Positions 1,902 to 51,225 of a DNA stretch of 64,000 bases are shown here, in pieces; the first letter of the stretch is position 1, and each line of letters begins with the position of its first letter. Source of the stretch: a virus; the IMG/VR virus record IMGVR_UViG_3300021963_000051, positions 1 to 64,000 of that record. One strand, given 5' to 3'. Below the pieces are notes generated by a model. The model was given only the letters and a program-made list of their open reading frames with translations, was not told where the DNA came from and ran no database searches. The position numbers were made by a program, and so were the translations under genes.

Positions 1902-3716
1902 TTAGGTTTTTATAATATATCTTAAATAGACTCCTACACCTGTACCAGTTGTGACATAGGTAGTGGTGCTCATATCTGGAACCCTAAATGTACCTGCTCC
2001 GCCTATCCCAAATATATTACCAATTCGAGCAAACAAAGCCGGATAAAGTGTAGCAGTGTGGACTGCTCCTAATCCAGGAGTCCCCTCATTAGTACAAAGT
2101 AAATATCCATTTGGAGCAGTTGTTCCCCCATATGGTAATATAGTGCCTGGTAAAACCAATCCGTTATAGACATCCGCTAAAAAATTATCCTTAGATATCT
2201 TTTCAATTGTAGTAGTTGAGGTAGATGTGTTTAAAACTAACAAGGTATAGGTGCTTGTCGCAGCAGCTAAAGAAGCAGCATCATCAAATATTTTTCTAGT
2301 TATAGAAGCTGTAAAAACTACATTAGCACTGCCATCAAACAATATAGAAGTACCTGTTATGTGACCAGTTATTCCAACTTCTCTTTTAGTTTCTAATTTT
2401 GTACTAGTTCCAACAAGTCTGCCATAAAATACTGTAGTAGCTGTTCCAGTGCTACCAATGCCAAGACTATAACCTACTGATTGCGCATGGATTTGACGGA
2501 ACCTTGTAGAAGTGCTACCGATATCATAAACATCGTGTTTATTAGGCTGAATAATAATTCCAAAACTCGATGTTGACCCTACAACGATTTTACCTATACT
2601 TGTTGTAACACCTGTTACATTAAGATTACCTCGTATGACTAAATTTTTATCGATTCTTGCAGATCCAGCAATAGCAATTGAATTAGACGATGAATTTATA
2701 ATACTCAAGGTTCCTGCGAATCGAGCAGAACCATTTACGTCTAATGCGGGACTTTGGCTGTTAGTAACTGTATTCACACCTACACTGCCCGCTATTGGAT
2801 TAAAGGTTATAAATGTACTGGTGTTTATACCTACATAAAAATTTTTAGTATTATCCAAAAATTGAAGTAAAGCACCATCTATACCACTATACAGTCTAAT
2901 TGTTTGATTATAAGTCGGATTAATAACGTATAATCCGTTAGTATCACTTATCTTAAAAGTACCTGTATGAGTTTGTGATGTAGCCCTATTGCGTAAAATA
3001 TCGTTCGATCTTAAAACACTATTACCAGTAACTACTAATGATTCTGCCTTTTCTGACACTCCGTAATATTTGGCATTATTCTTATTGGTTAGATTAGAAC
3101 CTACTCTAATTATAGTGAACCCTTCTATCACTGCTCTTGGTGTAAATTCATGATTAGAAATTACAGAGATAACCTTGTTATTGGCCCAATTTAGTATAAC
3201 TGGATAAAACTCTCCCGCAACACTTTCTACATTGGTAAATTCTGGTCCACTTTTTATAGCACCACTACTTGCACTAGGTCCAACTAATTTCCATATATTA
3301 CCGTATCGTATTTTTAATTGCGCATTTTCAGTATCTACCCAAACATCACCTTCTCTAACAGTAGAACCATACTGCACATATGGATCATTAGGTTGTTGAA
3401 ATATTCCACTAGACGGAGTCCATCTACTAGAATTATTGGAACCGTTGTTTATTCTTAAAATTTTACGTGTAGGTTCGCTGGTATCATACCAAAGTTGACC
3501 TTCGATAGGATTCTCAGGAGGATAAGGACTAGAAAAATTTTCAAGAAGTTTAACAAAATTCTGAGAATACGCAAGTCCATAATTAGTATAACCCGGACCA
3601 ACTAAATCTAAACTGGTATCATAATCATTTTTTCCAGAAGTTTCTATAGCTGTAGGAACAATTATTGTACCTGTTTTGAAAGGATCAGAAAATGTAAGAG
3701 TGTAAGGGCTTGCCAT
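1902..3716 (-). CDS. Tail fibre/collar-domain structural protein
   Basis: 604 residues. The N-terminal 90 residues (MASPYTLTFSD, DTSLDLVG, NYG, NFVKLLENF, GQLWYDT) match the N-terminus of the next fibre gene downstream, so the two are paralogues in their attachment region. The middle is beta-rich, with a DIGSTSTRFRQIHAQSV motif and a FDGSANVVF strip as in cyanophage fibres. Residues about 517-604 (GTILPYGGTTAPNGYLLC to TFRVPDMS) match the phage tail collar domain family seen in T4 gp12 and many short fibres. Only about 70 bases separate it from the next gene, so co-transcription is likely. Inferred role: short or side tail fibre. Exact attachment site unknown. Confidence 0.75.
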   Translation of the reverse strand: MASPYTLTFSDPFKTGTIIVPTAIETSGKNDYDTSLDLVGPGYTNYGLAYSQNFVKLLENFSSPYPPENPIEGQLWYDTSEPTRKILRINNGSNNSSRWTPSSGIFQQPNDPYVQYGSTVREGDVWVDTENAQLKIRYGNIWKLVGPSASSGAIKSGPEFTNVESVAGEFYPVILNWANNKVISVISNHEFTPRAVIEGFTIIRVGSNLTNKNNAKYYGVSEKAESLVVTGNSVLRSNDILRNRATSQTHTGTFKISDTNGLYVINPTYNQTIRLYSGIDGALLQFLDNTKNFYVGINTSTFITFNPIAGSVGVNTVTNSQSPALDVNGSARFAGTLSIINSSSNSIAIAGSARIDKNLVIRGNLNVTGVTTSIGKIVVGSTSSFGIIIQPNKHDVYDIGSTSTRFRQIHAQSVGYSLGIGSTGTATTVFYGRLVGTSTKLETKREVGITGHITGTSILFDGSANVVFTASITRKIFDDAASLAAATSTYTLLVLNTSTSTTTIEKISKDNFLADVYNGLVLPGTILPYGGTTAPNGYLLCTNEGTPGLGAVHTATLYPALFARIGNIFGIGGAGTFRVPDMSTTTYVTTGTGVGVYLRYIIKT

Positions 3717-37945: not shown

Positions 37946-38380
37946 ATGTCATGGTATTATAAAAATGAAATAATAACCGAATTACCTGACACCACTGTAG
38001 GATTTGTATATATTATAACAAATAAAATTACAGGCAAAAAGTACATAGGCAAAAAATTATCTAAATTTAGCAAAACCACATACAAAACAATAAAATTAAA
38101 AAACGGCACAAAGAAAAAGAAACGAATCAAATCAAAAATAGACTCAGACTGGCAGACATATTACGGCTCAAACGATCAACTTTCAAAAGATGTAGCACAA
38201 TTAGGCACAGACAAATTTCATAGAGAAATATTATATTATTGTAAATCAAAAGCAGAATGTTCATACATTGAGGCACGAGAACAATTCACAAGAAAAGTAT
38301 TAGAATCAGACGAATATTACAACGGACAGATTTCTGTTCGTGTCCATGGCTCCCATATTAAAGGCAAATTACTCGGTTAA
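37946..38380 (+). CDS. SegE-like GIY-YIG endonuclease family protein
   Basis: 144 residues. GFVYIITNKITGKKYIGKKL is the GIY-YIG motif (first part GFVY, second YIG). A Lys-rich loop follows, then SDWQTYYGSNDQL and SYIEAREQF with a candidate catalytic Glu. This matches the free-standing SegE-like proteins common in marine T4-like phages rather than an intron endonuclease. It begins directly at the methyltransferase stop. A homing role is possible but the family may serve DNA repair or processing. The unusual GC-rich non-coding stretch begins at its stop. Confidence 0.75.
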   Translation: MSWYYKNEIITELPDTTVGFVYIITNKITGKKYIGKKLSKFSKTTYKTIKLKNGTKKKKRIKSKIDSDWQTYYGSNDQLSKDVAQLGTDKFHREILYYCKSKAECSYIEAREQFTRKVLESDEYYNGQISVRVHGSHIKGKLLG

Positions 38381-38381
38381 A

Positions 38382-38710
38382 GGCTAGCGCAGGCTAAATT
38401 CATGCGCCCTAGACCTGGACTTCGTGTCGCAGGGATGGATCGCTCACCGCCGAAGTGAGAACTCAACCACTACCCTACCCGGATGAAGATCACTAATCGC
38501 CGTGATTTGGTTGTTTGAATAGGTTAAACCCAAGGCAAAAAGACGCTCTTAATAGAGCACGTTTTACAAGTATGATAGCGTATACGTGTAAAGCCGCCGT
38601 TGTATGAAGACTGGGATGGAGGTACCGGACAACCGCCTCTGCTAAACACCCTAACGCTGTGTGACTATGCTACTCAGATGATGCCAAACTTCGCCCGCCC
38701 TGGGCGAAGT
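38382..38710 (+). ncRNA. Candidate structured RNA of unknown class
   Basis: The interval between the GIY-YIG gene and the next gene has no supported ORF and is about 50% GC, whereas flanking coding lines are about 20-35%. Hand folding gives seven local helices. 38382-38415 pairs GG-CTAG-CGCA with TGCG-CTAG-CC. 38419-38424 pairs with 38451-38456. 38464-38468 pairs with 38509-38513, enclosing 38487-38493/38502-38508. 38545-38549 pairs with 38554-38558. 38561-38573 pairs with 38582-38594 (one mismatch). 38619-38622 and 38626-38628 pair with 38633-38639 (3-base bulge). 38688-38696 pairs with 38702-38710. G-U pairs at 38488/38507 and 38562/38593 would be A-C on the other strand, favouring plus orientation. 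No tRNA T-loop, tmRNA ends, RNase P or group I intron core was found. Function unknown. Confidence 0.5.
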
Positions 38711-38749
38711 GTGACCACTTAATCTAGATGATACTAAAAGACAAAAACG

Positions 38750-38793
38750 CTTCGAGTCTCGTAGACGAAGAAGCGAACGAACGCAGTTCGTTC
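38750..38793 (+). other. Two adjacent hairpins before a late promoter
   Basis: The first hairpin (38750-38770) pairs CTTC-GTCT with AGAC-GAAG around a CGT loop, with a 2-base bulge. The second (38775-38793) is a perfect 8-base inverted repeat GAACGAAC / GTTCGTTC with a GCA loop. It ends exactly where ATAAATA begins. No T-run follows either, so they are not typical intrinsic terminators. They could end or stabilise the upstream RNA or bind a regulator. Confidence 0.6.
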
Positions 38794-38800
38794 ATAAATA
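38793..38800 (+). promoter_or_regulatory. Late-promoter-like CATAAATA before 38821
   Basis: CATAAATA, one mismatch to TATAAATA, 20 bases before the ATG at 38821. It abuts a perfect inverted repeat on its upstream side. It would give a very short leader for the first internal-head-protein gene. Confidence 0.5.
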
Positions 38801-38820
38801 TTAAAATATCAATACAAAAA

Positions 38821-40233
38821 ATGAAATTATCAAATATTATTATAGAACAACATTTAAAAGATGGATTAATTCTATTAGAGTCTGTATGTCAAAATCTGAC
38901 TGAGGAACAATCTAGGATTATTAAGGGAATTTATAATGAATTTAAACCTTTAATAGAAGCAAGTTTAAGCCAAGATCAGATACTACAAGTATTCACAGGT
39001 GTTGAACAACAGGCAACAGGATCGGGTAATAATAGGACACTGATAGGTAAAGGGGTTGATCTTAAAAATCAAGTAAACGATATAATCAATAAAACAGGGC
39101 AATGGCTTCAAAATACCGCTCCGGTACAGTTCGCTGATCAGAAGTTTGAAGAACTTAAAACAAAAGTTGCTGCTAAGTTCCCTAACTTAGATCGTCAACT
39201 TACTGATCTTGGTACCTGGATGAAAGACAATCCAGGTAAAAGTGCTGCTATCATTGGCGTATTAACTGCTATTGCTTCATTGGCGGGTGGACCTGCAGGT
39301 GGTGCTATAGCTGGACAGGCTCTTAGGGGTGCTGCTGAACTTATAAAAGGTGAAAAACTTTCAACTGCTGTTGGAAAGGGTATTAAAACTGCGGCATTAG
39401 GTTATCTTTCAGGTAAAGCATTTCAGATGCTTGGCGACTGGGTAGGTAGTTTTAGAGAACAATCAATACCATTTGGTCCGGAAAATACTGGCCTTGAAAA
39501 AGTTAGTTGGGGTGCTCGCAGTTCGATTACAGGTCCTGGAATGGAATGGACAAGGACTACACAGGGATTTAACGCATTAGTTCGTCCTCAAGAAGCAGAA
39601 GTCATTAGAACAGCAATGGCAGGAATCAAAGCAGGAGAACCTGGTGCATTTGATACATTGTATAAGGTAGCAAGAGAAGTAAACTCAAAAGAATATAAGC
39701 AGGCCTTAAATGGTGTAGTTCAAGGAGCCTGGGAAGCAGCTAAGTCTAATGATAGTATACTTCAATTTATTAACGTTACAAAACAAGGATTGCAAGCAGG
39801 TGCGCAAGGTGCTGTTGCAGCGTCAACTGGCAGCAAATCTACTACAAAAACAGAAAGTTTAACTAAATCCACAATAAACAAATTATTTTATAATGTAGAT
39901 CGAGCCAATATGGTATTAGATGAAGGTATATTTGATAAGATTAAACAATTTGGTCAAAACTTAACCACTAAGATCACCGCAGATAAATTAAAAACAGCGT
40001 GGACTAAGGCAGGGTCTCCTACAGATAGCGATCAAGTTGCACATTTTTTAAAACAGGCCGGTGTAAATGACACTATAATTTCTAAGGTGTTTGGTGATAT
40101 GAATATTTCTTATTCGGGAAAAACAACACCTTCAACTAACAATCAAACGGTAAATACCAATGATATTGTAGTGAGAATACAAAAACTAACTCCTGCGCAA
40201 CAAAAAGAAATTTTAGCCTTACTAGGGAAATAA
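38821..40233 (+). CDS. Probable internal head (injected) protein with capsid-targeting N-terminus
   Basis: 470 residues from ATG 38821 (MKLSNIIIEQ). An in-frame ATG at 38728 would add 31 residues, but that stretch crosses two hairpins and the late promoter. The N-terminus resembles T4 internal protein targeting peptides (MKTYQEFIAE in T4) and contains I-I-E, a candidate gp21 cleavage site. Residues about 137-177 form a Gly/Ala-rich hydrophobic stretch (AAIIGVLTAIASLAGGPAGG) that could span a membrane. The C-terminal part (KAGSPTDSDQVAHFLKQAGV, then IQKLTPAQQKEILALL) is a helical module also seen in other marine phage proteins. No enzyme motif. Inferred to be packed in the head and ejected with DNA. 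No strong ribosome site is visible. Confidence 0.5.
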   Translation: MKLSNIIIEQHLKDGLILLESVCQNLTEEQSRIIKGIYNEFKPLIEASLSQDQILQVFTGVEQQATGSGNNRTLIGKGVDLKNQVNDIINKTGQWLQNTAPVQFADQKFEELKTKVAAKFPNLDRQLTDLGTWMKDNPGKSAAIIGVLTAIASLAGGPAGGAIAGQALRGAAELIKGEKLSTAVGKGIKTAALGYLSGKAFQMLGDWVGSFREQSIPFGPENTGLEKVSWGARSSITGPGMEWTRTTQGFNALVRPQEAEVIRTAMAGIKAGEPGAFDTLYKVAREVNSKEYKQALNGVVQGAWEAAKSNDSILQFINVTKQGLQAGAQGAVAASTGSKSTTKTESLTKSTINKLFYNVDRANMVLDEGIFDKIKQFGQNLTTKITADKLKTAWTKAGSPTDSDQVAHFLKQAGVNDTIISKVFGDMNISYSGKTTPSTNNQTVNTNDIVVRIQKLTPAQQKEILALLGK

Positions 40234-50677: not shown

Positions 50678-50701
50678 TAGTTTATATACAGATGATACAC
50701 G

Positions 50702-50725: not shown

Positions 50726-50799
50726 GTTAAATATAAAGTCTTTATGATTTATGCGGCACCCACCGCGTAGGGCATAGAACGCTCAATAAGGAGAAACAA

Positions 50800-51225
50800 A
50801 TGGGACGTCCATTAAAGAAAAAATTTTTTAGCGCAAATGCTAATAATAACATTAAAGTACAATTTCATAACGGTACTTCAAGCGTAGCTGGTTACATTGT
50901 TCACCAAGTAGGTGCTCGTAGATTTCAGTGTAGTGACGGAACAAATCGAAGAGTATGTAAATTAGTGAACAAAGCCTCTGCAGCTATTGCGGCTGGGGAA
51001 ATGACCATTACAGTGAAACAAGATGATGGTACTATAGATCAAGTTCTTAAAATTTCAGGAAGAATGCTAACAACCTTAAATGCTGGTGGCAATACGATTC
51101 GTAGACCTTGGAATTTCAGTACTTCAACTAGTGACAGTTATGTGCAAGTTGAAGAAGCTGGTACTTCGACTAGCGCAGTTACAACAGCAACTGGTGCAAC
51201 CAACCTTGAAGGTGATGCTCAGTAA
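50800..51225 (+). CDS. Conserved small virion protein (MGRPLKKK type)
   Basis: 141 residues with AAGGAG upstream. The opening MGRPLKKKFFSAN, then AGYIVHQVGARRFQCSDGT and RVCKLVNK are shared by small proteins of marine T4-like phages found near capsid or fibre genes. The C-terminal half is Thr/Ser/Gly-rich beta. It is flanked by intrinsic terminators on both sides, so it forms its own transcript, which fits a high-copy virion protein. Capsid decoration is possible but unproven. Confidence 0.65.
   Translation: MGRPLKKKFFSANANNNIKVQFHNGTSSVAGYIVHQVGARRFQCSDGTNRRVCKLVNKASAAIAAGEMTITVKQDDGTIDQVLKISGRMLTTLNAGGNTIRRPWNFSTSTSDSYVQVEEAGTSTSAVTTATGATNLEGDAQ

Follow-up and report, generated by a model that had tools for sequence, protein, structure and literature searches.

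A structured phage RNA behind a GIY-YIG gene with a seven-letter word kept alike in two places

Described RNA classes and the locus

The omega RNA of TnpB and IscB is a nuclease-linked guide RNA, and covariation in RNA normally takes the form of letters that stay complementary. GOLLD and ROOL are large pseudoknotted phage RNAs of unknown function (PMC12286853). The Polynucleobacter-1 motif (Rfam RF01718) was graded 'probably' cis-regulatory in a 2010 table, which places it in Burkholderiales from fresh water or an estuary (Weinberg et al. 2010, PMC2864571); the authors of that paper usually presume cis-regulation for motifs lying 5' of genes, and the motif annotation resides in supplementary files. 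Literature searches for Polynucleobacter-1 or RF01718 returned PMC2864571 alone, and GIY-YIG combined with RNA-guided, noncoding RNA and phage returned nothing related.

The window, the whole 64,000-nucleotide stretch of viral DNA analysed, contains a GC-rich region directly behind a GIY-YIG gene, which a sequence-only reading had proposed as a new structured RNA of the plus strand. GC content reaches 0.468 in 38381-38820 and 0.494 in 38382-38792, against 0.353 for the 64-kb window, and only 0.24% of the window's 410-nt stretches match or exceed the region. The plus-strand fold (-124.8 kcal/mol, z -3.55) was equalled in stability by 0 of 100 shuffles, compared with 9 of 100 for the minus strand (z -1.60). 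The structured, plus-strand character was thus borne out, as was the neighbour, which Pfam assigns to SegE_GIY-YIG; the RNA begins two bases past the last stop base of that gene. The region 38382-38793 is, on comparative evidence, a real plus-strand structured phage RNA with covariation in its homologues (Table 1). Its 5' end is taken from the start of the Rfam model and its 3' end from the last conserved hairpin.

The claim of novelty fared differently along the RNA. For the first 135 nt it fell, since the entire 141-position RF01718 model matches 38382-38516; for the remaining ~277 nt, which include PK2, P7-P10 and the twin word, it stood, as no Rfam family matched although the sequence is conserved in homologues. 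Conservation and covariation continue past the 141-nt model to about 38793. The 111,966-base virus record containing the window has one RF01718 match, and 38300-38900 matched nothing else in Rfam up to an E of 5, including the models of GOLLD, ROOL and the group I intron core. The earlier failure to match a tmRNA or a group I intron was likewise upheld in 38300-38900; ARAGORN found neither tRNA nor tmRNA in the whole window, and Rfam matched neither in 38300-38900. No reading frame longer than 41 aa lies entirely within the RNA; a listed ATG frame (38728-40233) overlaps its last 66 nt, and the start of the downstream gene is assumed to be 38824. Elsewhere in the window, a freshwater-2 RNA (Rfam RF02980, 55.8 bits) occupies 50731-50802 (+), in the gap that separates two successive genes.

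Table 1. Positions in the window of the RNA, its parts and its immediate neighbours
Feature	Position	Strand	Evidence
SegE-type GIY-YIG endonuclease gene	37946..38380	+	Pfam PF19835 SegE_GIY-YIG E 1.8e-31; PHROG 447, 7363
Whole structured RNA	38382..38793 (about)	+	100 unique full-length homologues including the window
5' domain, Rfam RF01718 Polynucleobacter-1	38382..38516	+	cmscan 105.7 bits, gathering 37
Possible pseudoknot P0, crossing P1	38382-38385/38392-38395	+	88.5% paired; shuffle mean 84.8%, maximum 87.1%: weak
Helix P1	38387-38391/38403-38407	+	99.3% paired; 88/425 both-side cells; shuffled mean 80.2%
Helix P4	38464-38469/38508-38513	+	100% paired; 67/510 both-side cells
Helix P4b, inside P4	38489-38493/38502-38506	+	100% paired; 56/425 both-side cells
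Long hairpin P6	38563..38592 (38563-38573/38582-38592)	+	lower part 95.3%, upper part 95.6% paired
Kissing pseudoknot PK2	P6 loop 38577-38581/38654-38658	+	97.2% paired, shuffled mean 87.0%
Helix P7	38599-38603/38629-38633	+	94.9% paired (85 sequences); 97.4% (48 sequences, two clades)
Helix P9	38613-38615/38649-38651	+	92.9% paired (85 sequences); 82.6% (48 sequences, two clades)
Helix P8	38619-38622/38636-38639	+	95.3% paired (85 sequences); 97.4% (48 sequences, two clades)
R1: CUC + word AGAUGAU (38676-38682) + G	38673..38683	+	homologue comparison
Hairpin P10, between the twin words	38688-38696/38702-38710	+	91.7% paired (one clade); 71.2% (two clades)
R2: UCU + identical word AGAUGAU (38726-38732) + A	38723..38733	+	homologue comparison
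Hairpin P11, GAGCG..AGCGAA-like tip in many homologues	38749..38774	+	by eye from homologues
Last hairpin P12, GAACGAAC-GCA-GUUCGUUC	38775..38793	+	three covarying pairs near the 3' end, E 0.006-0.011
ATAAATA box before next gene	38794..38800	+	in 48/52 co-oriented, 5/33 convergent loci

Helices, sister clades and neighbouring genes

The structure was assessed on an alignment of 85 non-redundant sequences (<93% identity, window included) reaching down to 55% identity to the window, with per-helix pair counts compared with 300 shuffles and covariation scored by a home-made, tree-based test (FastTree, parsimony null). Looking for covarying pairs in homologues, as the sequence-only reading had suggested, yielded 26 column pairs at E<0.05, comprising 22 of pairing type, which fall in P1, P3, P4, P4b, P5, P6, P7, P8, P9 and the last hairpin, and 4 that are non-complementary. 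Pairing in P1, P2, P4, P4b, P6, PK2, P7, P8, P9 and P10 exceeds the highest of the 300 shuffles. Two helices drawn from the single sequence, one of 12 pairs in 13 positions (38561-38594) and one of nine pairs (38688-38710), recur in homologues as P6 and P10, while the ACTTCG/CGAAGT helix placed at 38419-38456 gives way to P2 (87.9% paired) and, less clearly, P3. Both P3 (74.9%) and P5 (64.2%) lie above their shuffles but are weak, and P3, though part of the Rfam model, is doubtful in this alignment because it pairs equally well (74%) when slid by one column. The candidate P4a was rejected, its pairing in the 85 sequences not being above shuffles.

Both-side changes fill 158 of 510 cells in the lower part of P6 and 87 of 340 in the upper, PK2 shows 14 further pair types in the 85 sequences, and P7 crosses both P8 and P9, giving an interlocked pseudoknot. 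A test on 48 sequences from two clades gave 114 both-side cells against 34.7 in shuffles and a score of 0.390 against 0.164, which 0 of 500 shuffles reached. Comparison of homologous sequences thereby supports P1, P4, P4b, P6-P10, PK2 and the twin word. Within the Polynucleobacter-1 domain, positions of about 38473 and 38484 show a non-complementary swap (U/C in 43 of 85, C/U in 42 of 85) that goes with the type of the intervening loop.

A GIY-YIG protein search (pattern matches in viral contigs) gave at least 573 relatives, of which 80 were kept, and RF01718 was present in 38 of the first 50 records of these. The motif pattern returned 112 stretches, and the full-length profile 183 hits in the fetched loci, copies included, with 100 unique full-length sequences. 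From the 3'-core pattern came at least 120 stretches; among the matches listed, 99 of 114 new hits fit the profile, and 38 of 91 profile-matching hits had no recognisable Polynucleobacter-1 domain. By eye, many such loci carry a different 5' half with the motif GCTCTGTGAAAAAGATACA, a scan for which gave at least 120 stretches, 89 of them unique among the matches listed. A third 5' part stands behind the GIY-YIG gene in L033, L040 and L041, in two after an extra small frame. Six loci of the second type had no Rfam match at E 0.1, and RF01718 was absent from 7 of 8 (L525 matches), 8 of 9 (L402 matches) and 10 of 10 further sister-clade loci, where the other Rfam hits were a tRNA in L513 and a below-threshold c4-a1b1 in L566. 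L525 combines the RF01718 domain with the GCTCTGTGAAAAAGATACA-type motif. A model built from the 48 two-clade sequences scores the window, itself one of its members, at 134.5 bits.

Two further clades thus share the twin-word end while carrying other 5' parts, mostly without an Rfam match, and the RF01718 motif is a 5' section, separable from the rest, of a larger RNA that is frequent in uncultivated phage contigs. The motif loci in bacterial genomes, among the matches listed, are without the upstream CCCTA motif. Neither the RNA at full length nor its sister clades nor the twin word turned up in Rfam 15 for the loci scanned or in the literature searched, largely open-access main texts, and blastn with six queries did not find the RNA in 50,697 named phage records. 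The first third of the RNA is accordingly already known, and the rest, the sister clades and the twin word appear to be undescribed in Rfam.

The GIY-YIG gene precedes the RNA in 102 of 105 loci, including 52 of the 55 found by pattern rather than by that gene, in 68 of 83 and 67 of 83 in other sets (among the matches listed), and in 19 of 25 third-clade loci, some of which are chance coding matches. The RNA occurs without a recognisable upstream GIY-YIG gene in 3 of 105 loci and, among the matches listed, in 15 of 83 and 16 of 83, although a profile places such a gene within about 3 kb in two loci of the latter group. Eight of eight named phages with a GIY-YIG homologue had neither RF01718 nor the 3' core. 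The residues E109 (81/82) and N126 (82/82), which we take to be catalytic, are conserved. By a rough longest-frame choice, upstream neighbours fall into 7 groups (79, 15, 3, 3, 1, 1, 1 of 103) and downstream neighbours into 17 groups among 77. In the window, a methyltransferase-domain gene (PF13489, 37220-37942) lies directly 5' of the GIY-YIG gene, and the two downstream genes, which the sequence-only reading took for probable internal head proteins, matched no PHROG at 0.001 and no Pfam family at 0.01.

This arrangement bears on whether the RNA is a cis-acting leader of the downstream gene, as the 'probably' cis-regulatory grade in the 2010 table of PMC2864571 would favour. Such a role is highly improbable: the next gene, taken as the longest frame within 1.4 kb past the RNA, is convergent in 33 of 84 loci, and the ATAAATA box, like a late promoter, stands 3' of the RNA, within 180 nt, far more often when the next gene is co-oriented (Table 1), which argues that the RNA is not the leader of that gene. 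The box resembles the T4 late promoter core. In the window as a whole, TATAAATA, which we take to be that core, was found 3 times where 13.9 occurrences would be expected, a deficit suggestive of avoidance.

The twin word

Hairpin P10 is flanked by R1 and R2, which carry one and the same 7-nt word w. Three non-complementary column pairs, 54 columns apart, hold identical letters (GG 44/AA 41; GG 80/CC 3/AA 2; AA 49/GG 36), each agreeing in 85 of 85 sequences, and all seven word columns are equal in 85 of 85, in an alignment made without using the word. The preceding triplets are never alike, CUC standing before the R1 word and UCU before the R2 word in all 85. By parsimony, four positions changed 20, 4, 9 and 6 times, with equal counts for R1 and R2, which makes about 39 coordinated changes within one clade, and no one-sided state exists among the 85 sequences. 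When the word was read per sequence, with a pattern that fixed three of the seven positions and restricted a fourth, the copies agreed in 99 of 100 unique full-length homologues.

The agreement extends to other sets. In the separately retrieved 3'-core set, the word agrees in 81 of 84 (among the matches listed), against a between-sequence identity of 0.16 and 0 of 4200 shuffles; the exceptions are L392, where one copy is lost, and L468 and L479, which were unplaced. The second clade gave 73 of 83 with loose flanks (shuffles 33/4150) and 72 of 83 with strict flanks (shuffles 2/4150), in both cases among the matches listed, and L412, L441, L486 and L495 are counted in both the 84-set and this 83-set. 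Among its exceptions, inspected by eye, a single-letter difference accounts for L598, L542, L566, L584, L617 and L585; in L565 the words match between other flanks; L515, L521 and L531 were unplaced. In the third clade, 21 of 33 unique hits agree (shuffles 1/1650); eight of the other 12 look like coding chance matches, and L636, L640, L647 and L656 differ by one letter. Two single loci were noted besides. L392 (about 8530) has lost R1 and hairpin P10 and kept R2 and the 3' hairpins, and L069 (about 3240-3340) has, by eye, a diverged RNA behind the GIY-YIG gene with the word GGTGAAT twice, the first copy preceded by GAC.

Anchors independent of the word could not place 13 of 218 sequences; the two copies agree in 195 of the 205 non-redundant sequences that remain. 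Of the ten disagreements, four (L617, L542, L566 and L585) are true one-letter differences, and the other six look like placement errors, L598 among them having a one-letter difference too. Dealing R2 among sequences gave 48, 74, 90, 92, 49, 94 and 61% identity at positions 1-7, against an observed 96.6-99.5%; excess identity, weaker, also appeared at -12, -11, -9, -6, -5, -4, +9 and +10, while position -7 agreed less often than dealt. The non-redundant seven-of-seven cases contain 25 distinct words. In a set of 230 sequences, position 2 reads GG 181, CC 40, TT 6 and AA 3, and the mismatches fall on position 1 (2 cases) and position 7 (7 cases), the ends of the word, with inner positions biased to agree because the set was selected for at least 6/7 identity; an inner mismatch (ATATAAT/AGATAAT) occurs in L179, outside this set. 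At word positions that vary between A and G, A in one arm with G in the other was not seen.

Two RNA places that keep the same letters while these vary freely are unlike the usual complementary covariation, and we know of no described RNA class with two such words. Translation was rejected as the cause, the spacing being 47-59 nt and in all three frames (23, 40, 37 of 100), as was an internal partner, for which there is just a weak wobble match to GUUGUUU that fails for several words. A search of five phage records for a copy or complement of each genome's own word found no shared place except the RNA itself: the 24 aligned rows obtained from 139 sites all map, by position, to the RNA locus, and eight swapped-word controls gave 0, 1, 0, 7, 0, 5, 0 and 0 rows, in a test that compares translated surroundings and could therefore miss a poorly conserved non-coding partner. 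Non-coding word sites were also inspected by eye; a pair in G067 separated by 57 nt and a site near position 50690 of the window look like chance occurrences, and the own word is not enriched in the phage records.

Possible partners of the word and known systems

Because the word is constrained to likeness with free letters, the explanations that remain are an outside partner, contact between the arms, one protein and strand movement. We rank the outside partner highest, since mismatches gather at the word ends and the RNA travels with a nuclease gene; the RNA would then be a two-armed recognition RNA whose twin word is read by a partner outside the phage genome, at a rough probability of 0.35. 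On this view large tailed phages would have a separate gene for this non-coding RNA, transcribed either independently or as the 3' end of the GIY-YIG message, and the RNA would fold into a compact pseudoknotted body that holds out the arms R1 and R2, one on each side of P10. One and the same partner might read both arms; most simply, both would hybridise to the same short sequence, of the host or of a competing phage, so that a change of target would force a change in both. A partnership with the neighbouring GIY-YIG nuclease is suggested by linkage only. The end-located mismatches would fit a fraying duplex. An RNA partner is disfavoured, since G-U pairing would permit an A/G difference between the arms; the partner would have to be DNA or something that reads more strictly. 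Against recognition, seven letters are too few for specificity alone.

The arms might instead touch each other, in one fold or across a dimer, through a parallel non-Watson-Crick contact of like with like. The coupling is as tight as in the best Watson-Crick helices (100% in P4 and P4b), just two letters would need to change jointly, and no internal segment tracks the word, yet all four letters occur at word position 2, and the unlike CUC and UCU directly precede the words. We know of no precedent for seven consecutive like-with-like contacts of mixed size, and consider such a contact unlikely.

A dimeric protein with one sequence preference could bind both arms, protein and arms changing together. 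By eye, the arms are built alike, each with UG(A/G), a short spacer, an A, CUC or UCU, and w. Against a tree-based null, four GIY-YIG columns go with word position 5 more than expected (family-wise p 0.035 for one column and 0.000 of 200 for the other three), ties likely caused by shared deep ancestry. No column is tied to position 1, the most-switching one (best family-wise p 0.605). Each switch would need three changes, in about 39 switches that left no one-sided state, and words such as AGATAAT, ATGAAGA, ACGAAAT and ATAGCAG share little, which makes this explanation doubtful as well.

Hepadnaviruses have two direct repeats, DR1 and DR2, and a primer or strand moves from one to the other. 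Were the words repeats of this kind, or were one copy to overwrite the other and so keep them alike, it would make sense that identity counts and sequence does not, and that the flanks at -6 to -4, +9 and +10 also agree more than dealt. Copying should, however, also homogenise the CUC and UCU triplets, and the loss of R1 and P10 in L392 does not, by eye, run between repeat borders; we regard movement or copying as distinctly improbable.

More broadly, the RF01718 domain may be a single 5' version within a wide, undescribed superfamily of phage RNAs whose hallmarks are the twin-word module and the link to a SegE-type GIY-YIG gene, with the word as a freely rewritable address that is read twice. 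This reading as a whole, in which the pair would amount to a new kind of RNA-directed system, is a speculative proposal, with the odds well against it.

Set beside the known systems, the window RNA continues where the Polynucleobacter-1 model ends, before P5-P12, PK2, P7 and the twin word. It resembles GOLLD and ROOL in being pseudoknotted and phage-borne, and differs from them in being shorter, in lying next to a GIY-YIG gene rather than tRNAs and in having the twin word. Like the omega RNA of TnpB and IscB, it lies directly 3' of a nuclease gene, but that nuclease is of the GIY-YIG type, RNAs of this kind are also found without that gene upstream, and in place of a single variable terminal guide the window RNA carries an internal 7-nt word twice.
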